Shown here: one piece after another, positions 34,256-61,012 of the stretch
How positions within the stretch are numbered: position 1 is the first letter of the stretch
Layout of the letters: each line of letters begins with the position of its first letter
DNA from: a virus
IMG/VR virus record: IMGVR_UViG_3300030002_000007
Span: 1 to 64,000 of that record
Length of the DNA: 64,000 nt
Strand: one strand, 5' to 3'
Notes under the pieces: generated by a model
The model's database searches: none
Told to the model about the DNA's origin: nothing
What the model saw: only the letters and a program-made list of their open reading frames with translations
Position numbers and translations under genes: made by a program

Positions 34256-35272
34256 TTACCTGAGGGAGGATAAAATACGCTTACGCGTAGCTTGGACAGA
34301 AGCCTTCAACTTGTCGGGGACATCCAAACCAGAGACCCACGAATTGAAAAACTCCTTGGTGGAAATTCTGTGATCGATACCGTCTGATGGTAAGTCCTCA
34401 GTAAGGACGGAGGCTAGCTGAGCTTTAGACTGGAAGTTGCGAACGACACAAACATTCAGATGCTTGTAGTCATCTGCAGTGACCTGTGCCCCGTCTTGCA
34501 GAACCAGCTTGACCAGATCGGTGCTCTTCAGATCGTGCGGGATGTCAGAAGCAGTTTGCACCGTGATCGTATGCAGCCGGTACTTCGGCTTGAACGGAAC
34601 ACTGGTGATCTCGAAATCCTGAGGGCCATTGAATTCGATGGAATGGAAAAACTTCTTGGGCTTCTCACCGAAGCACGTCTGGTACAGAGTACCTGAGTAG
34701 TAAGTGTTCCGTACAACTTGGTTCGTATGGATGTGACCCGCGACGGCAACACAGTCACTCTGGTCTCGCTCTTCATTCAATATCTGCCGACCGTTGTCTG
34801 TAGTGGCACCGTAGACGTCGAGGTGACAGACGTTCAAAGCTTTCGGATGGAACTTGTCCCGAGGGAACGGAAGGAAGCGCACAAGAGCGCCGTCGATCTT
34901 AACGTCAGCTCCAGCGAGGTAGATGTGAATGTTCGATCGCTTGGCAACTTCAAACTCACTCACGACTTCCAGCGAGTGTCCGACCTCGGGCGTACGCCCG
35001 ATCGTGTCGTGATTACCGGGGATGATGAAAAATTCAAACTCTTTGTTGCTCAACACCTTTGAAAGCTCGAGCATGCCTGAGTAAGACATGCGTGGGTTCT
35101 CACAGATGTCACCGTAGAAGATAATGTTGCGTACGTTCTGTTGCTCAGCGTATCTGAGAACTCTCTGAACTTCACCACACACCATAGCGTCGTGGTTATC
35201 AATGTACTTGGAGAGGCCACCCAATCCTAGGTGGTCGGTCAAATGAAGGTCGCCAATTCCGAGTGCGCGCAT
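34256..35272 (-). CDS. SbcD/Mre11-like metallophosphoesterase (T4 gp47-like)
   Basis: 338 aa. Nuclease subunit of SbcCD/gp46-gp47 complexes that resects DNA ends for recombination-dependent replication. Metal-binding motifs are GDLHLTD (Asp8, His10), FYGDICEN (Asp55), PGNHDT (Asn87, His88) and a later AGHIHTNQ. Length matches gp47. The expected ATPase partner (SbcC/gp46) is not in this window. It is the first leftward gene after the divergent region, with a TGTAAATT motif 52 nt upstream and TAGGAG before the ATG. Confidence 0.87.
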   Translation of the reverse strand: MRALGIGDLHLTDHLGLGGLSKYIDNHDAMVCGEVQRVLRYAEQQNVRNIIFYGDICENPRMSYSGMLELSKVLSNKEFEFFIIPGNHDTIGRTPEVGHSLEVVSEFEVAKRSNIHIYLAGADVKIDGALVRFLPFPRDKFHPKALNVCHLDVYGATTDNGRQILNEERDQSDCVAVAGHIHTNQVVRNTYYSGTLYQTCFGEKPKKFFHSIEFNGPQDFEITSVPFKPKYRLHTITVQTASDIPHDLKSTDLVKLVLQDGAQVTADDYKHLNVCVVRNFQSKAQLASVLTEDLPSDGIDHRISTKEFFNSWVSGLDVPDKLKASVQATRKRILSSLR

Positions 35273-35323
35273 ATACTGAACTCCTAAATCTTTCTTTGTA
35301 TGAAATTAGAACTGCTCCCTCAG

Positions 35324-35331
35324 AATTTACA
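35324..35331 (-). promoter_or_regulatory. Promoter candidate TGTAAATT
   Basis: Minus-strand TACTGTAAATTCTG, 52 nt before the SbcD-like ATG. One base from TGTAAATA. Its mirror partner at 35816 points rightward. Confidence 0.45.
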
Positions 35332-35520
35332 GTATGAAAGGTTGCGAGAATTCAGTGAGTCTCTGTAATGATGAAGTCCTCTCTTCTATAAAACAAGCCA
35401 GACTGAAAGTGGGTCCGCGCTTGTCCTGACTTGCAGTTGATCCATCGTGTCCGTAGGACATGGACGGATCCGTTCCTCAAACGTAAGGTAGGCTCCATGA
35501 CTCAACTGTTCTTGAACCTA

Positions 35521-35769
35521 GGAAGGGTTTGAGGCTTTAGCCTTCGCTCACCCACACGCTACCTCGAAGGGCGGAGCCCGAAGAGGGTGGGGGAATATCC
35601 GGTGCATTGCTGACTAGAAGGATCCGAACCTAAGAGAGATCCGATCCCTACCGCATCCTCAACCTTTACTGAGAAGCAAGAGCGATCCCTTCCTTACTGA
35701 ACCGACAATTCCCCCCGAGGGCTCCGCCCTCTGTCGGGGTGATCAAAGGCTAAAGCCTCAAACCCTTCC
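35521..35769. repeat. Long inverted-repeat element
   Basis: The outer arms are 35521-35544 and 35746-35769, 24 bp and perfectly complementary, each containing the near-palindrome GGCTTTAGCC. Nested arms are GGGCGGAGCCC (35569-35579) and GGGCTCCGCCC (35719-35729), each also able to form its own hairpin. The right inner arm is extended by CCCCGA and TCGGGG. No target-site duplication flanks the element, so a transposon remnant is less likely than an origin or structured RNA. Confidence 0.85.
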
Positions 35770-35815
35770 ATTATTCTTTTGCGATAGCACTGTGAATGTC
35801 CTAGGATTCAAATAC

Positions 35816-35823
35816 TGTAAATT
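35816..35823 (+). promoter_or_regulatory. Promoter candidate TGTAAATT
   Basis: ACTGTAAATTAG upstream of the rightward helicase genes, a variant of the recurrent 8-mer. Confidence 0.4.
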
Positions 35824-35854
35824 AGGGGAAATGAATTGTTATCCATCCACGTTC

Positions 35855-35860
35855 TATAAT
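35855..35860 (+). promoter_or_regulatory. Perfect sigma70 -10 box TATAAT
   Basis: TATAAT with no convincing -35 box at the right distance (TGAATT 17 bp upstream is poor). About 83 nt before the helicase ATG at 35943. Likely contributes to early rightward transcription. Confidence 0.4.
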
Positions 35861-35942
35861 AAGCAATGACAATTCATTTCATTCATTGATCTCAGTACGA
35901 TTTTGGGGCACAGAACAACACATTTCACAGAGGCGAATAAGC

Positions 35943-38033
35943 ATGAAAAGCACGACTCGTAAACCCCTAGAGAGTAAGGCCAATCCTATCTACTTCGCAG
36001 ACGTGCTTCCAGGTGCAGGGAAGACTCTCTGGGCTATAGAGAAGATGCGAGACTGCATAGACAAGAAGAAGGGCATCATCCTCTACGTGGCACCGACTCA
36101 TGATCTCTTGGACGAAGTCGAGCGGAAGCTAGTCATCAACACTCGTGCTAGTTGTGTCCACCACATTCGCGCTACCAACGATGGCGAGTCAACCTCTGTT
36201 GCTCTCCGCCTGAAGATCGACGGTGGTGTCTCGCGCTACGGTGCTACTATAAAGCCGTGCAGTCCCGGCACTGTATTACTCTGCACTCACGAGACCTTTC
36301 TGTATCTCACCACCGATGTGAACTCTTCCATGTATATCAAACGTAGAGCGGAAGTGAATGTCATCTTCGACGAAGCGCGCAAGTGCGTGCTGTCCGAAAC
36401 GAAATTCTCCTTACCGAGAGATGCCACTTCAGCCTTTCTGGAAACGTTCATCCACAGAGAGGACGCACCTGCGGGTCATGAGTTTGGTCGCGTCCATCTG
36501 AAGAAGGACGTGCTAGACACTGAGGCCTTCGACGCCATCTTCTCTAGGAGCAGCAAGCTCCGGCGTTTCCGTAGTCGCGTGCTTCAGCAGCTAACTGCAA
36601 TCCGTGGAGACTCTAACATTGAGATGTACGCTAGCATCAAGCGCATGGAGGACGCAGAGGACACCGAGTTCCTATTCCAGACTATGCTCGTGCCTCGCCA
36701 CGCCTTCCATGGTTGGAAGAAGGCTGTCCTGCTTGCTGCCTTCTTCAAGAACTCTCAGATGTACCACCTGCTGGCGCAGTACGACGTGTCCTCTTTGCTA
36801 GGGACGACAGACAAGAGTAGTGCTGCTAAGTACGACCAATTGATCCTGTCTGCTGGTGGTGAAGATAAGCTGTGCAAGCTGATCGACATATCCACTAAGG
36901 TGGTTAGGGCTGCAAGGGTCAACGCCATCCTCAAACGCTATAAAGCACTGACCGTCACTTACATCAGCCCCAACACTTCGTTCACTATGTTTCATCTGCG
37001 GAACAGTGTGTTGGTTGGAAATATTGAGCCAGATACTCTAGCCGAGTTCACCTTGGCATACAGAGCGTGGAGTAGGAAGAGAGGGCACGCTCACATCCCT
37101 CTGGCTGCGTCGCTACCTGAGGTCTTCTCAGCCAGCCCTGATCCTGAACTAGTACGCATGTTCAAGCTGCTCAAGATCCACACGGAGTACTCTAGGCTGA
37201 CACCTCTTCGTTACTATGTACGTGCAGCCTTTGGGTTATGTCGACGCTGGTTGTCCCAGCATCGGATGAAAAAAGAAACTATCCCTATGCTGGTGAACAT
37301 CGGCACTACGGAAGGATCTAGCTCCCGCAATCGCCACTGGGTGCAGGACGTGATGAAAGTTGTACCTGATCCTGCAGACAATTTGTTGGAGGTGCCGTTT
37401 GTCAATCATGGCTTGAATAGGTTCAAAGAGTTGAACACTCTTGCCTTCCTCGCTACCCTGAATCCTACACCGACCACGGCTCGATTGTTTCGTCAGCTAT
37501 GCCCGAGTTACAATCCCAAGCTAGACCACACTGTCGATCAGGCGATCCAGACGGCGATGCGCATTTCGATACGCGACACATCCTCACGCACCAAGCCCCT
37601 AGTAGTGGTAACGGACCGTCCGTTGGCCGAAGCAATCGTCGAGCACCTACAGGGTGTGCCGTCCTTAGTTGAACCGCAGTCGATTTTTTCTGAGTTCCCA
37701 AACTTAGATCCATTTTTCTTACCTAGGGAGACGCACGCAGAGAAGAAAGTGAGACTCAAAGCCAATCCCGAGCTCGCAACTAAGATGCGTGCCAAACAAG
37801 CCAATGCTATGGCCCGGTCCCGTGAGCGCAACGCAGAGCAGATAAAGTACATAAAAGAAAACAGTAAATATGTTAGTGCAGTAAACACGTTATCAATAAA
37901 GGTGACTCGCCTGAAGAAAGACGGAAAGCCGTTTGAGAAGCAGAAACTGGAGCTAACTGCCTTGCGTGAGAAAGCTAAAATGGAGAGGAAAGAGTTGATA
38001 GCGGAATTCAAGAAGGGACAGAGCAATGGTTGA
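35943..38033 (+). CDS. Superfamily 2 helicase-like ATPase
   Basis: 696 aa from the ATG at 35943 (GAGG upstream). Walker A PGAGKT (residues 23-28), motif Ia VAPTHDLLDEVE, Walker B FDEA and, much later, motif-V/VI-like segments are less clear. The C-terminal 100 residues are Lys/Glu/Arg-rich and helical. It is the first rightward gene beside the candidate origin, so an origin-binding or unwinding role is conceivable. That role is inferred from position only. A different nucleic-acid ATPase is possible. Confidence 0.6.
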   Translation: MKSTTRKPLESKANPIYFADVLPGAGKTLWAIEKMRDCIDKKKGIILYVAPTHDLLDEVERKLVINTRASCVHHIRATNDGESTSVALRLKIDGGVSRYGATIKPCSPGTVLLCTHETFLYLTTDVNSSMYIKRRAEVNVIFDEARKCVLSETKFSLPRDATSAFLETFIHREDAPAGHEFGRVHLKKDVLDTEAFDAIFSRSSKLRRFRSRVLQQLTAIRGDSNIEMYASIKRMEDAEDTEFLFQTMLVPRHAFHGWKKAVLLAAFFKNSQMYHLLAQYDVSSLLGTTDKSSAAKYDQLILSAGGEDKLCKLIDISTKVVRAARVNAILKRYKALTVTYISPNTSFTMFHLRNSVLVGNIEPDTLAEFTLAYRAWSRKRGHAHIPLAASLPEVFSASPDPELVRMFKLLKIHTEYSRLTPLRYYVRAAFGLCRRWLSQHRMKKETIPMLVNIGTTEGSSSRNRHWVQDVMKVVPDPADNLLEVPFVNHGLNRFKELNTLAFLATLNPTPTTARLFRQLCPSYNPKLDHTVDQAIQTAMRISIRDTSSRTKPLVVVTDRPLAEAIVEHLQGVPSLVEPQSIFSEFPNLDPFFLPRETHAEKKVRLKANPELATKMRAKQANAMARSRERNAEQIKYIKENSKYVSAVNTLSIKVTRLKKDGKPFEKQKLELTALREKAKMERKELIAEFKKGQSNG

Positions 38034-57205: not shown

Positions 57206-57532
57206 ATGGAAGCGCGAAAGCGAAAACCAGCCGAGCCGTACATCTCGCAATTTGAATGCAAGGCGATCGACCTTCTGTTGAAGTTGGGTCCGTGCATTGG
57301 TCGAGTGTTCGCTGTAAAGTATTGGGGTGTAGTCAAGCACAGTAGCAGTAAGTACTCGGACTATGCGCTGAAAGGTGCTGTAGGTCTGAACCGGATGCGT
57401 CGGCATGGCCTAGTATATAGCACTGTTCCGAGCAGCGGGTTTAAGTCCCCAGCGTATCACCTGTGGCACGTAACTGAATTGGGTATCCTCTTGCAACACA
57501 ACTACCTCGCACGATATGGCGAACCAAAATGA
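57206..57532 (+). CDS. Winged-helix-like protein, 108 aa
   Basis: ATG at 57206. A helix-turn-helix-like arrangement (IDLLLKLGPCIG, then KGAVGLNRMRRHGLVYS and the wing YHLWHVTELGILLQ) suggests a small DNA-binding protein. The ATGA overlap couples it to the topoisomerase gene. A regulator role is inferred. Confidence 0.52.
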   Translation: MEARKRKPAEPYISQFECKAIDLLLKLGPCIGRVFAVKYWGVVKHSSSKYSDYALKGAVGLNRMRRHGLVYSTVPSSGFKSPAYHLWHVTELGILLQHNYLARYGEPK

Positions 57533-59448
57533 CGACAACGACAACAAAGAGTGCAGTACCTCGTAAATATGATTCGGATAGTATTGAAACACTTCAGTTC
57601 CCTCTCAACGTTAGAGCTAATGCGTCGCAGTACATCGGCGGTGTGGACGAGCAAGGTCTGTTCAACGTGTGGCGGGAGTTGGGAGACAATGCAGTTGATG
57701 AAGCATTAGCTGGACGCAACACCGGAGTCCTGTTCTACTTCGACAAGGACGGCAGCTACTGGGTGCAGGATAAGGGTCATGGCATCCCGCAAGGCATGAA
57801 GACGCAGATCATCAATGTGTCCGGCAAGCCGGTCAAGAGCCAGATGCCAACGATGCAAGCTGTGTTCGGCGCTCTGCATACCTCCGGCAAGTATCGCGAC
57901 GACGCGTACAAAGTGTCGATCGGGTCACACGGCATTGGCGCAAAGGGTACGAATGCGACGGCTGAGTTCTTCGAAGTGTGGACGAAGTACGAAAATCAGT
58001 GGTACAACATCGCATTCAAGAAAGGCCACTTGATCACCGGCGTGCGCAAATGCAACAGACCCAAAGCGCCAGTCGGCACGATCACTGAAGGCACGCTGAT
58101 CCACTACAAGCCGGACAGCACGATCTTCTCAGCCAAGCGCTTCCCAGTATCAATGGCCGTCGAGTGGGCACAGATCATGGCCTACATGAACCCCGGCTTC
58201 AAGATCATCCTTGCTGCTCATACCGGCAAGACGAAGAGCTTCTACTCCAAGCTGGGTGCAAAGGACTATATCACTGAGCGTTTGACGGTCATGAAGTGTG
58301 ATGCAGAGCCCTCCGTGTTCGAGCATCATTCGTCGTTGGCAGACGTCGTAATTGCCTTTTCATCCTACGATGGATCAGACCTCCGGGGTTTCACAAACGG
58401 CCTCTTCAACATACAGGGCGGGTATCATGTCGACGCTGTGTCGAAAGCCCTGTACCGAGCCATCGAGCCGTACAAGAACAAGAAGCACACGTTCACTCGC
58501 CGTGAGTTCGATGATGGGCTTCTCGGTATCGTGAATGCGAAGTTGCATAAGGCATCTTTCAGTTCGCAGGACAAGGCAAAGCTCACGGACACTCGCATGG
58601 GTGCCGAGTTCGAGGAAACGTTGTTCGCTGATGCTACTGCGTTCTTCAAGGGCAACAAAGCCTTGGCCCTTCGGCTGTGCGACAAGGCCAACAAGATCGC
58701 TGAATTGCGCACGAAGTTCAAGGCGTCCAAAGCTGTGGTGTCTGCGATCAACGGCATGAGGCGTGGTGGGTTGCCGTCGAATTACGCACCAGCAGGCCGA
58801 GACGTGAAGATCAAGGATCGCGAGTTGTTCATTGTCGAAGGGGAGTCAGCAGCAGGGGGCTTCCGCAAAGTACGCGCAAGGCACCAAGCATTGCTCCCCA
58901 TGCGTGGCAAGGTGTTGAACCTCCTGAAGAAGGGGCAGCAAGCCCTAGTGTCAAAGGCGATCATTGCCATCTTGGTGGCAGTCGGTTATGATGCAAAGGC
59001 TGAAGATCCTATCGGCAAGTTCCAGTTCGGACGGATCGTACTCCTTGCAGATGCTGATGCAGACGGCGGTCACATCAACAGCCTGTTGCTCACTCTGTTC
59101 TACAAGCTGATGCCTGAAGTGTTTGATCGAGGTTTGGTCTATGTGGCAGACATGCCGGAGTTCATGGCTCAGCCGAAGGGGTTGCTAGTCACAGGCAACT
59201 CGAACAGTGAAGTGCAAGCGAAGCTCAAGACGTTGGGATTGAAAGCGCCAGTGAAGCACTTCAAGGGATGGGGTGAAGTTGATCCACCTGTGCTGAAAAT
59301 CCTTGCTGTAAATGATTCACGTAAGCTGATCAAGATCCAACCGATCTCCAAAGAGTCGGGGGTTAGGTTTGAGGCCATCATGGCGAAGGACGTTGAGGCG
59401 AGGCGCGAGGCGCTTGGCATTACCGAGGAAAAGCACCATGCAGAGTAG
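57529..59448 (+). CDS. Type IIA topoisomerase, ATPase/Toprim subunit
   Basis: 639 aa. GyrB/ParE/T4 gp39-like. GHKL ATPase motifs: ELGDNAVDEALAG (residues about 51-63, Asn54), VQDKGHGIPQGM, and GSHGIGAKGTNA. The Toprim domain shows FIVEGESAAGGF and LLADADADGGHI. Relaxes or manages supercoils during phage replication. Length matches ParE/GyrB rather than the split T4 form. It forms the A2B2 enzyme with the next gene product, and the downstream start lies within its 3' end. Confidence 0.92.
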   Translation: MTTTTTKSAVPRKYDSDSIETLQFPLNVRANASQYIGGVDEQGLFNVWRELGDNAVDEALAGRNTGVLFYFDKDGSYWVQDKGHGIPQGMKTQIINVSGKPVKSQMPTMQAVFGALHTSGKYRDDAYKVSIGSHGIGAKGTNATAEFFEVWTKYENQWYNIAFKKGHLITGVRKCNRPKAPVGTITEGTLIHYKPDSTIFSAKRFPVSMAVEWAQIMAYMNPGFKIILAAHTGKTKSFYSKLGAKDYITERLTVMKCDAEPSVFEHHSSLADVVIAFSSYDGSDLRGFTNGLFNIQGGYHVDAVSKALYRAIEPYKNKKHTFTRREFDDGLLGIVNAKLHKASFSSQDKAKLTDTRMGAEFEETLFADATAFFKGNKALALRLCDKANKIAELRTKFKASKAVVSAINGMRRGGLPSNYAPAGRDVKIKDRELFIVEGESAAGGFRKVRARHQALLPMRGKVLNLLKKGQQALVSKAIIAILVAVGYDAKAEDPIGKFQFGRIVLLADADADGGHINSLLLTLFYKLMPEVFDRGLVYVADMPEFMAQPKGLLVTGNSNSEVQAKLKTLGLKAPVKHFKGWGEVDPPVLKILAVNDSRKLIKIQPISKESGVRFEAIMAKDVEARREALGITEEKHHAE

Positions 59449-61012
59449 GCCAGCAACACCTACGGTTAAGAAAGCAGTAACGAAGCGTGCATCACCCAAA
59501 GCAAAGGGCTTGGCAACACTGGGTGGTGGCATCGTGCGTGAAGGTTCGATTGACGACTACGCGCAGGAGACAATGAGTGAGTACGCTGAAGAAGTGAACC
59601 TAGCGCGCTCAGTGCCTGATTTGATGGATGGGCTGAAGCCTGTGCAACGACGCATCATGTGGTCAGCGCACAAGATGCCCGGTTCCGGTTTCCGCAAGAC
59701 AGCCCGCATAGTTGGTGATTGCATCGGTAAGTATCACCCACACGGTGACGGGTCAGTGGATGGGGCGATCGAGACGTTGGTGCAGCATCCAACGCCAACG
59801 ATGCTGGGTAGCGGCAATTGGGGCGGCTTGTTGGATAGCGCGGCAGCAATGCGATACACCAACTGCAAACTGTCCAGTTACGGCGAGTCCTTCTTCCTTC
59901 CTGACTACATCAACAGTTCGGTGACGTCGTTTGTTCCCAACTACGACGGCGAAGACGACGAGCCTGTGAGCTTGCCTTCAATGCTTCCGAACGTGCTGCT
60001 CAATGGTGGTGAAGGTATCGGCGTTGGCGTCACGACGTTGATCCCGACATTCAGCCCCGAGTCGATCATTATCATGCTGAAGCGCGTGCTTGCTGGCGAG
60101 ACACTGACTCCAGTCGACTACGCGAAGACCTTGAAGTTCCAGTCGAAGTGGGGTGGGCATGTATTGAACACCAAAGAGAATAGGGCGGCGTGGTTGCAAC
60201 TGTTCAAGACCGGATCGGCATCAGTGCAGTTCAAGGCTGCGTTGCACATTGATCGGAACGGCAAGGCGATCGAGATTGACGATTGGCCACCCGGCCTCAA
60301 TCCTGTGGCTTTGGTCGACAAGATCAGACCCAAGGAAATGAAGAACGGCAAGGTACGTGCAGGGCTTGCCGAGGTCGATCAGGTGTTCAATCACAACGGG
60401 GACACCGGCTTCCGCATCGAAATGAAGAAGGACCGGAACTACACGCAATTCGATGAACTGGTCAAGAAGATCGAACGCCTGACTACGTCGCGCAAGAGCT
60501 TCAAGATCAACGTTACTTATCGGAAAGCGACAGTGGAAGATGGCAAGGTGATCTTCAACACGCGGTTCCTGTCAGTGTCCATTCCGAAGTTGCTGTCCCT
60601 GTGGCTCAAGGAAAGGCTGCAGATCGAAAAGCGCAGTCTCGAGTATCGGCTGAAGAACCAAGCGGCTATGATCGCCTACTCGAAGCTCCTGATTTACGCA
60701 TCGACGAAACTCGAGGTCGTGTTTGCTGCATTGAAGTCTCAGGACTCCAAGGCTTACTTGGTGACGAACCTCAAGCTAACACCTGAGCAAGCCGACACGA
60801 TCCTTGAGTTGCGCGTTCGTCAGTTGTCGAAACTTGACAAGGCTGCAATGGAGTCGAAGCTCAAGGAACAGGTTGCCTTCGAGGCCCAGCTGCAGAAGTG
60901 GTACAAAGCCCCACGGGCCAAGGTGTCTGCTGATATGGACACTTGCCTACTGGCGATCCAGAAGGATCGGACCTATGAAAACGTGAAGGAAGAAGAGCTC
61001 ACGATTGCCTAA
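59438..61012 (+). CDS. Type IIA topoisomerase, DNA-cleavage subunit
   Basis: 524 aa from the ATG at 59438, overlapping the ATPase-subunit gene by 11 bp. ParC/GyrA/T4 gp52-like. The winged-helix active site has Tyr140 preceded by Arg139 (AMRYTNCKLSSYGES), and PDLMDGLKPVQRRIMWSA, GKYHPHGDGSVDGAI and LNGGEGIGVGVTT are conserved. The C-terminal beta-pinwheel of GyrA seems absent, as in gp52, so it should decatenate or relax without wrapping. A coiled-coil region follows near residues 390-490. Confidence 0.92.
   Translation: MQSRPATPTVKKAVTKRASPKAKGLATLGGGIVREGSIDDYAQETMSEYAEEVNLARSVPDLMDGLKPVQRRIMWSAHKMPGSGFRKTARIVGDCIGKYHPHGDGSVDGAIETLVQHPTPTMLGSGNWGGLLDSAAAMRYTNCKLSSYGESFFLPDYINSSVTSFVPNYDGEDDEPVSLPSMLPNVLLNGGEGIGVGVTTLIPTFSPESIIIMLKRVLAGETLTPVDYAKTLKFQSKWGGHVLNTKENRAAWLQLFKTGSASVQFKAALHIDRNGKAIEIDDWPPGLNPVALVDKIRPKEMKNGKVRAGLAEVDQVFNHNGDTGFRIEMKKDRNYTQFDELVKKIERLTTSRKSFKINVTYRKATVEDGKVIFNTRFLSVSIPKLLSLWLKERLQIEKRSLEYRLKNQAAMIAYSKLLIYASTKLEVVFAALKSQDSKAYLVTNLKLTPEQADTILELRVRQLSKLDKAAMESKLKEQVAFEAQLQKWYKAPRAKVSADMDTCLLAIQKDRTYENVKEEELTIA

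Follow-up and report, generated by a model that had tools for sequence, protein, structure and literature searches.

GNA-loop DNA hairpins clustered upstream of one helicase family suggest an origin or control region in a jumbo-phage lineage

Results

A loop-specific hairpin cluster accompanies one helicase family

We analyzed a 64,000-nucleotide stretch of viral DNA (the window), the first 64,000 of the 81,478 bases of IMG/VR record IMGVR_UViG_3300030002_000007, and in particular the non-coding region between a leftward SbcD-like nuclease gene and a rightward SF2 helicase gene. A preliminary description had drawn attention to nested inverted repeats there. As judged from sequence comparison, the stronger finding is a lineage-wide, loop-specific cluster of small hairpins tied to this one helicase family. 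We counted hairpins with stems of at least 4 bp and a three-base GNA loop closed by C-G in 15 genomes and derived the expectation from the remaining sequence of those genomes. The helicase-upstream regions held 24 such hairpins against 0.77 expected, a 31-fold excess over background that was spread over 13 of the 15 genomes; under the larger of two controls (other non-coding DNA or the whole genome) the expectation was 0.79. The remaining three-base loops were not enriched in the same regions (10 seen, about 16 expected), and the restriction of the excess to GNA triloops therefore favors a role at the level of DNA. The motif GAGCGNAGCGA was found six times against 0.04 expected. Among tetraloops, a comparison of low power, TTCG was absent and GNNA weakly increased. 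By sequence, the hairpins of the window and its relatives belong to the d(GCGNAGC) class, members of which occur at the origins of single-stranded DNA phages. GNA mini-hairpins of this class are extraordinarily stable as DNA (PMC10527192). Unlike the known cases, those described here are clustered lineage-wide upstream of one helicase family in double-stranded DNA (dsDNA) jumbo phages.

DNA searches returned no close relative of the window, and searches made directly with the helicase and SbcD genes found none either; in the collections searched, the helicase reached at most 35% identity. The phage PolA, which is encoded near the helicase-upstream region together with a Toprim primase, is 46-48% identical to that of Burkholderia phages BcepSauron and BcepSaruman and Achromobacter phage Motura, and IMG/VR contains about ten further relatives. 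These matches make it probable that the window is one piece of a jumbo-phage genome. We located a homologue of the helicase in BcepSauron, BcepSaruman, Motura, Xanthomonas phages PhiXhv-12 and PhiXhv-16, Erwinia phage Ep032 and roughly twelve IMG/VR contigs. With few exceptions among those examined, the gene opens a rightward operon, and the divergent switch at which that operon starts comprises 376-1078 bp of non-coding DNA; in one genome (G002) this switch is less clear from open reading frames (ORFs) alone.

Three observations lead us to suggest that the hairpins travel with the helicase gene. BcepSauron carries a second helicase paralog at a non-divergent locus (233869-235908, - strand), and the 411 bp upstream of it (235909-236319; L060 4880-5330) contain five GNA hairpins: GGGGCGCAGCCCC, GAGCGAAGCGA twice, GAGCGCAGCGA and GGGGCTGCGCCCC. 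Four of the five GAGCGNAGCGA copies in BcepSauron sit in its two helicase-upstream regions. Finally, GAGCGNAGCGA does not occur in three PolA relatives that yielded no helicase.

The hairpins vary among genomes in stem sequence and loop base, and likewise in how many there are, in what order they stand and how far they lie from the start codon. A comparison of GCATGGA-GAGCGCAGCGA-TCCATGC in BcepSauron with GCAGGGA-GAGCGTAGCGA-GCCCTGC in BcepSaruman revealed that pairing is kept by compensatory change and that the GNA form is kept through a change in the loop. A rule by which + strand GNA hairpins precede - strand hairpins was rejected (5 pairs for, 9 against). Since relatives carry the same very stable type of hairpin beside the same helicase gene in different surroundings, evolution seems to preserve the hairpin itself.

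Nested inverted repeats in the window

In the window, the GNA hairpins have stems of 4, 5 and 6 bp, and two of the three lie within an elaborate repeat structure (Table 1). The perfect outer arms (35521-35544 and 35746-35769) measure 24 bp, as in the preliminary description, and are separated by 201 bp, there given as about 200 bp; the perfect inner arms (35568-35579 and 35719-35730), described earlier as 11 bp, measure 12 bp and lie 139 bp apart. Every arm doubles as a local palindrome (AGGCTTTAGCCT; GGGCGGAGCCC), again in agreement with the earlier account. No other perfect inverted repeat in the 81,478-base record (spacer up to 300) is as long as the 24-bp pair, and when the 670-bp region was put through 300 dinucleotide shuffles, no arm reached this length. 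The second longest, just after a tRNA-Ile gene, has 17-bp arms and a 256-base spacer (72569-72858 of G000; L033 8569-8858). Because no shuffle matched the arms and the runner-up reaches only 17 bp, they are not a product of chance.

The arms are present in single copy in the record, and their sequences are gone from distant relatives, where the hairpin type and position persist. A search for the same arms in phage records, viral contigs and prokaryote genomes gave no relevant match: an arm 20-mer matched no prokaryote genome, and an arm 17-mer matched only two viral contigs, both unrelated. An unrelated 35-kb viral contig holds tandem GC hairpins of similar type, GGTTTGAGGCTTTAGCCTC followed by GGGCGATAGCCCC (L005 2452-2500). 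In the reading favored below, the nested 24-bp and 12-bp arms would be the window phage's own elaboration.

Outward promoter motifs and an AT-core dyad

The region is bounded by two outward copies of the same 12-mer, ATACTGTAAATT, and next to the right-hand copy lies a dyad around an AT-rich core; both the dyad and the 12-mers had escaped the preliminary description. Outward GTAAATA motifs recur in the helicase-upstream regions of many relatives. Across the genomes of the window phage and its relatives, GTAAATA (often TGTAAATA) frequently lies just upstream of genes and in their direction, and it is a phage-wide promoter motif. It resembles the T4 late promoter TATAAATA.

The dyad is the sole perfect inverted repeat of at least 11 bp with a spacer of 18-62 in the 81-kb record. 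Dyads in relatives have arms of 7-15 bp and loops of about 21-55 nt with a TATA-like core, and they reached significance (p<=0.03) in 10 of 19 regions; in a comparison with control DNA, 10 dyads were seen against 1.6 expected. Their arms are completely different between phages. A sigma-70 promoter inside the dyad was rejected, strand and spacing being inconsistent, and a role as a 5' untranslated region element was rejected for most relatives because GTAAATA falls between the dyad and the start codon.

Table 1. Features of the divergent region and its surroundings (window coordinates)
Feature	Position	Strand	Remarks
Non-coding divergent region	35273..35942	.	670 bp, from SbcD-like gene to helicase gene; no credible ORF
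SbcD/Mre11-like nuclease gene	34256..35272	-	338 aa; PHROG 100, E 2.3e-22
SF2 helicase gene	35943..38033	+	696 aa; homologue starts at same kind of switch in relatives
Left outer arm	35521..35553	+	24 bp perfect to 35544; 33 nt at 94%; holds local palindrome AGGCTTTAGCCT
Right outer arm	35737..35769	-	perfect 24 bp at 35746-35769
Left inner arm AGGGCGGAGCCC	35568..35579	+	itself a GNA-loop hairpin, GGGC-GGA-GCCC
Hairpin with right inner arm	35717..35731	-	arm 35719-35730 within GAGGGC-TCC-GCCCTC; GNA loop on - strand
Third GNA-loop hairpin	35448..35460	+	TGTCC-GTA-GGACA; missed in preliminary description
Leftward ATACTGTAAATT	35324..35335	-	phage-promoter-like; outward at left edge
Rightward ATACTGTAAATT	35812..35823	+	phage-promoter-like; same 12-mer, outward at right edge
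Further GTAAATA sites	25768, 33233, 42366, 11553	-, -, +, -	upstream of genes
Dyad left arm	35828..35842	+	12 bp perfect; 15 nt at 93%
Dyad right arm	35866..35880	-	partner of 35828..35842
TATAAT in dyad loop	35855..35860	+	comparable TATA-like cores in many relatives

As described earlier, the region is the transcription switch between the two flanking genes, which lie on opposite strands with nothing coding between them. A crude ORF mask of the record shows only one larger gap, of 712 bp, at 74526-75238 of G000 (L033 10526-11238), and GNA hairpins near it are weak. The predicted helicase structure has an SF2 fold with best matches to DinG/XPD at a template-modelling (TM) score of only about 0.35, and we therefore claim no subfamily. 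Elsewhere in the window (57529-61012), a gyrase B-like gene adjoins a gyrase A/topoisomerase IV-like gene, and the phage thus has its own type II topoisomerase.

Strand asymmetry and origin features

In the literature searched, no replication origin of these jumbo phages is described. Raw GC skew follows gene direction alone in several relatives, and we therefore restricted the analysis to four-fold degenerate sites and fitted a model that has a term for the coding strand and two changepoints on the circle, using crude ORF calls. BcepSauron gave a strong signal, with a skew origin at 114.0 kb (set 96-114), within 2 kb of the helicase-upstream region at 112.0 kb; the skew terminus, at 235.5 kb, coincides with the second helicase paralog. 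The fitted origin lay 3 kb from the region in G009 (1.6% of the genome), 12 kb away in G002 (5.7%, a circular map being assumed) and 12.6% of the genome away in G001. The skew evidence for an origin is suggestive, short of proof. Two features expected of an origin are present: an adjacent replication-type gene, the SF2 helicase, and a potentially unwindable AT-rich segment, the dyad with its TATA-like core in many relatives.

Several observations weigh against an origin built on these hairpins. The skew gave no fit in PhiXhv-12, G003, G008 and G005, carried too little signal in Motura, G011 and G014, and is unusable in the window's own record, which is a fragment. The second hairpin locus of BcepSauron lies at the skew terminus and not at an origin. 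The dyad was undetectable in G001 and PhiXhv-16, weak in L098 and present in G009 only in a form with a 111-base spacer. The Poisson p-values for the hairpins ignore the shared ancestry of the 15 genomes and are therefore too small. Finally, in a genome-wide scan of fold energy the window region ranked 4 of 1250, whereas those of Motura (48/1702), BcepSauron (64/2019) and G008 (73/1707) were unexceptional; raw stability is therefore not the conserved property. The earlier proposal of an origin that extrudes a cruciform survives in part, with indirect support: the region recurs in relatives, GNA hairpins of the DNA type are enriched, and the skew fits in BcepSauron, G002 and G009, but several genomes disagree.

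Discussion

We tentatively favor, at somewhat short of an even chance, the reading that the region is the replication origin and master control region of this jumbo-phage lineage. It would work at the DNA level by means of extruded hairpins, and the neighboring helicase may be the initiator. In such a model, the two outward GTAAATA promoters would fire divergently and, with topoisomerase, build up negative supercoiling in the intervening DNA. The supercoiling would extrude the C-GNA-G mini-hairpins and the AT-core dyad, so that single-stranded DNA becomes exposed. With its gene immediately next to the region, where initiator genes usually lie, the SF2 helicase could then load on or unwind the hairpins, and the phage replisome (PolA, Toprim primase) would follow it. 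Hairpin extrusion, helicase binding and origin activity are the steps that we infer. The region might even represent a novel type of origin for a dsDNA phage: clusters of GNA mini-hairpins extruded by supercoiling, rather than a conserved binding sequence, would be the signal, a cis-encoded SF2 helicase would read it as initiator, and shape would be conserved while sequence turns over; this broader proposal is possible but doubtful.

Two known systems offer partial parallels. In oriS and oriL of herpes simplex virus, a dyad surrounds an AT-rich core between divergent genes, and UL9 is an SF2 helicase. The phage regions share with them an AT-core dyad between divergent genes and an SF2 helicase as candidate initiator, with no homology claimed. 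Unlike in the herpes origins, we found no conserved initiator-binding boxes in the arms; the phage arm sequences are not conserved and therefore provide no fixed binding box. The early promoters of phage N4, used by its virion RNA polymerase, resemble the phage hairpins in their short GC-rich stems (5-7 bp in N4) and GNA-type three-base loops. The N4 hairpins, whose three-base loop has a sheared G:A pair, extrude at a superhelical density of -0.035 with Mg2+ and require gyrase in vivo (PMC4496689). Unlike N4, the regions studied here hold several hairpins each, in both orientations and at no constant distance to a start site. A search for a single-subunit RNA polymerase (PF00940) gave no match, and its control search likewise failed to match.

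The main rival to an origin is autoregulation of the helicase operon, in which DNA hairpins, either extruded by supercoiling or bound by a phage protein, gate transcription of the helicase and of the divergent SbcD operon. We consider this rather unlikely, but it would account for several findings: hairpins accompany the helicase even at the non-divergent BcepSauron locus, GTAAATA promoters face outward at both edges, the dyad frames a TATA-like core, and the N4 early promoters provide a precedent (PMC4496689). However, in the dyad no sigma-70 promoter keeps to a constant strand or spacing, the number, order and start-codon distance of the hairpins vary, and autoregulation alone does not explain the BcepSauron skew fit.

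The preliminary description also proposed a long structured RNA; it would be a non-coding transcript of about 250 nt that starts within the region, the - strand being the better candidate. The fold energy is real (z-scores against shuffles: -7.9, - strand; -7.3, + strand); one outer-arm mismatch is G-U in a - strand transcript and A-C in a + strand one, and inner arms occur at a similar spacing (134-139) in Motura and G008. However, Rfam gave no real match at gathering or relaxed thresholds, the recognized promoter motifs point away from the repeats, and no arm sequence is conserved. Strong enrichment is moreover limited to GNA triloops, known for their stability in DNA, and does not extend to the tetraloops in the low-power comparison above. 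An RNA is unsupported by these data, and we judge it improbable.

Still less probable is a packaging, recombination or programmed-break site, at which the adjacent SbcD-like palindrome nuclease would cut cruciforms and seed recombination-dependent replication. The SbcD-like gene does flank the region, and an ORF of 325-385 aa, about SbcD-like length and matched by length alone, lies close by on the left in most relatives. However, almost all jumbo phages carry SbcCD genes (PMC7824862), making this adjacency weak evidence, and no test pointed to cleavage. A miniature inverted-repeat transposable element with 33-nt terminal repeats is very improbable, because, despite a fitting length of 249 bp and the terminal inverted repeats, the target-site duplication is missing (CCTA/GGAAGG...CCTTCC/ATTA) and there are no further copies in the record or in phage records, the arm k-mer matches being confined to the two unrelated contigs.

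The GNA-hairpin signature linked to one helicase family provides a concrete candidate origin for these phages. GNA hairpins are suggested as a ligand for the PHROG 2467 helicase family. If the favored reading is true, supercoil-extruded hairpins would extend from N4-type promoters to a giant-phage lineage.
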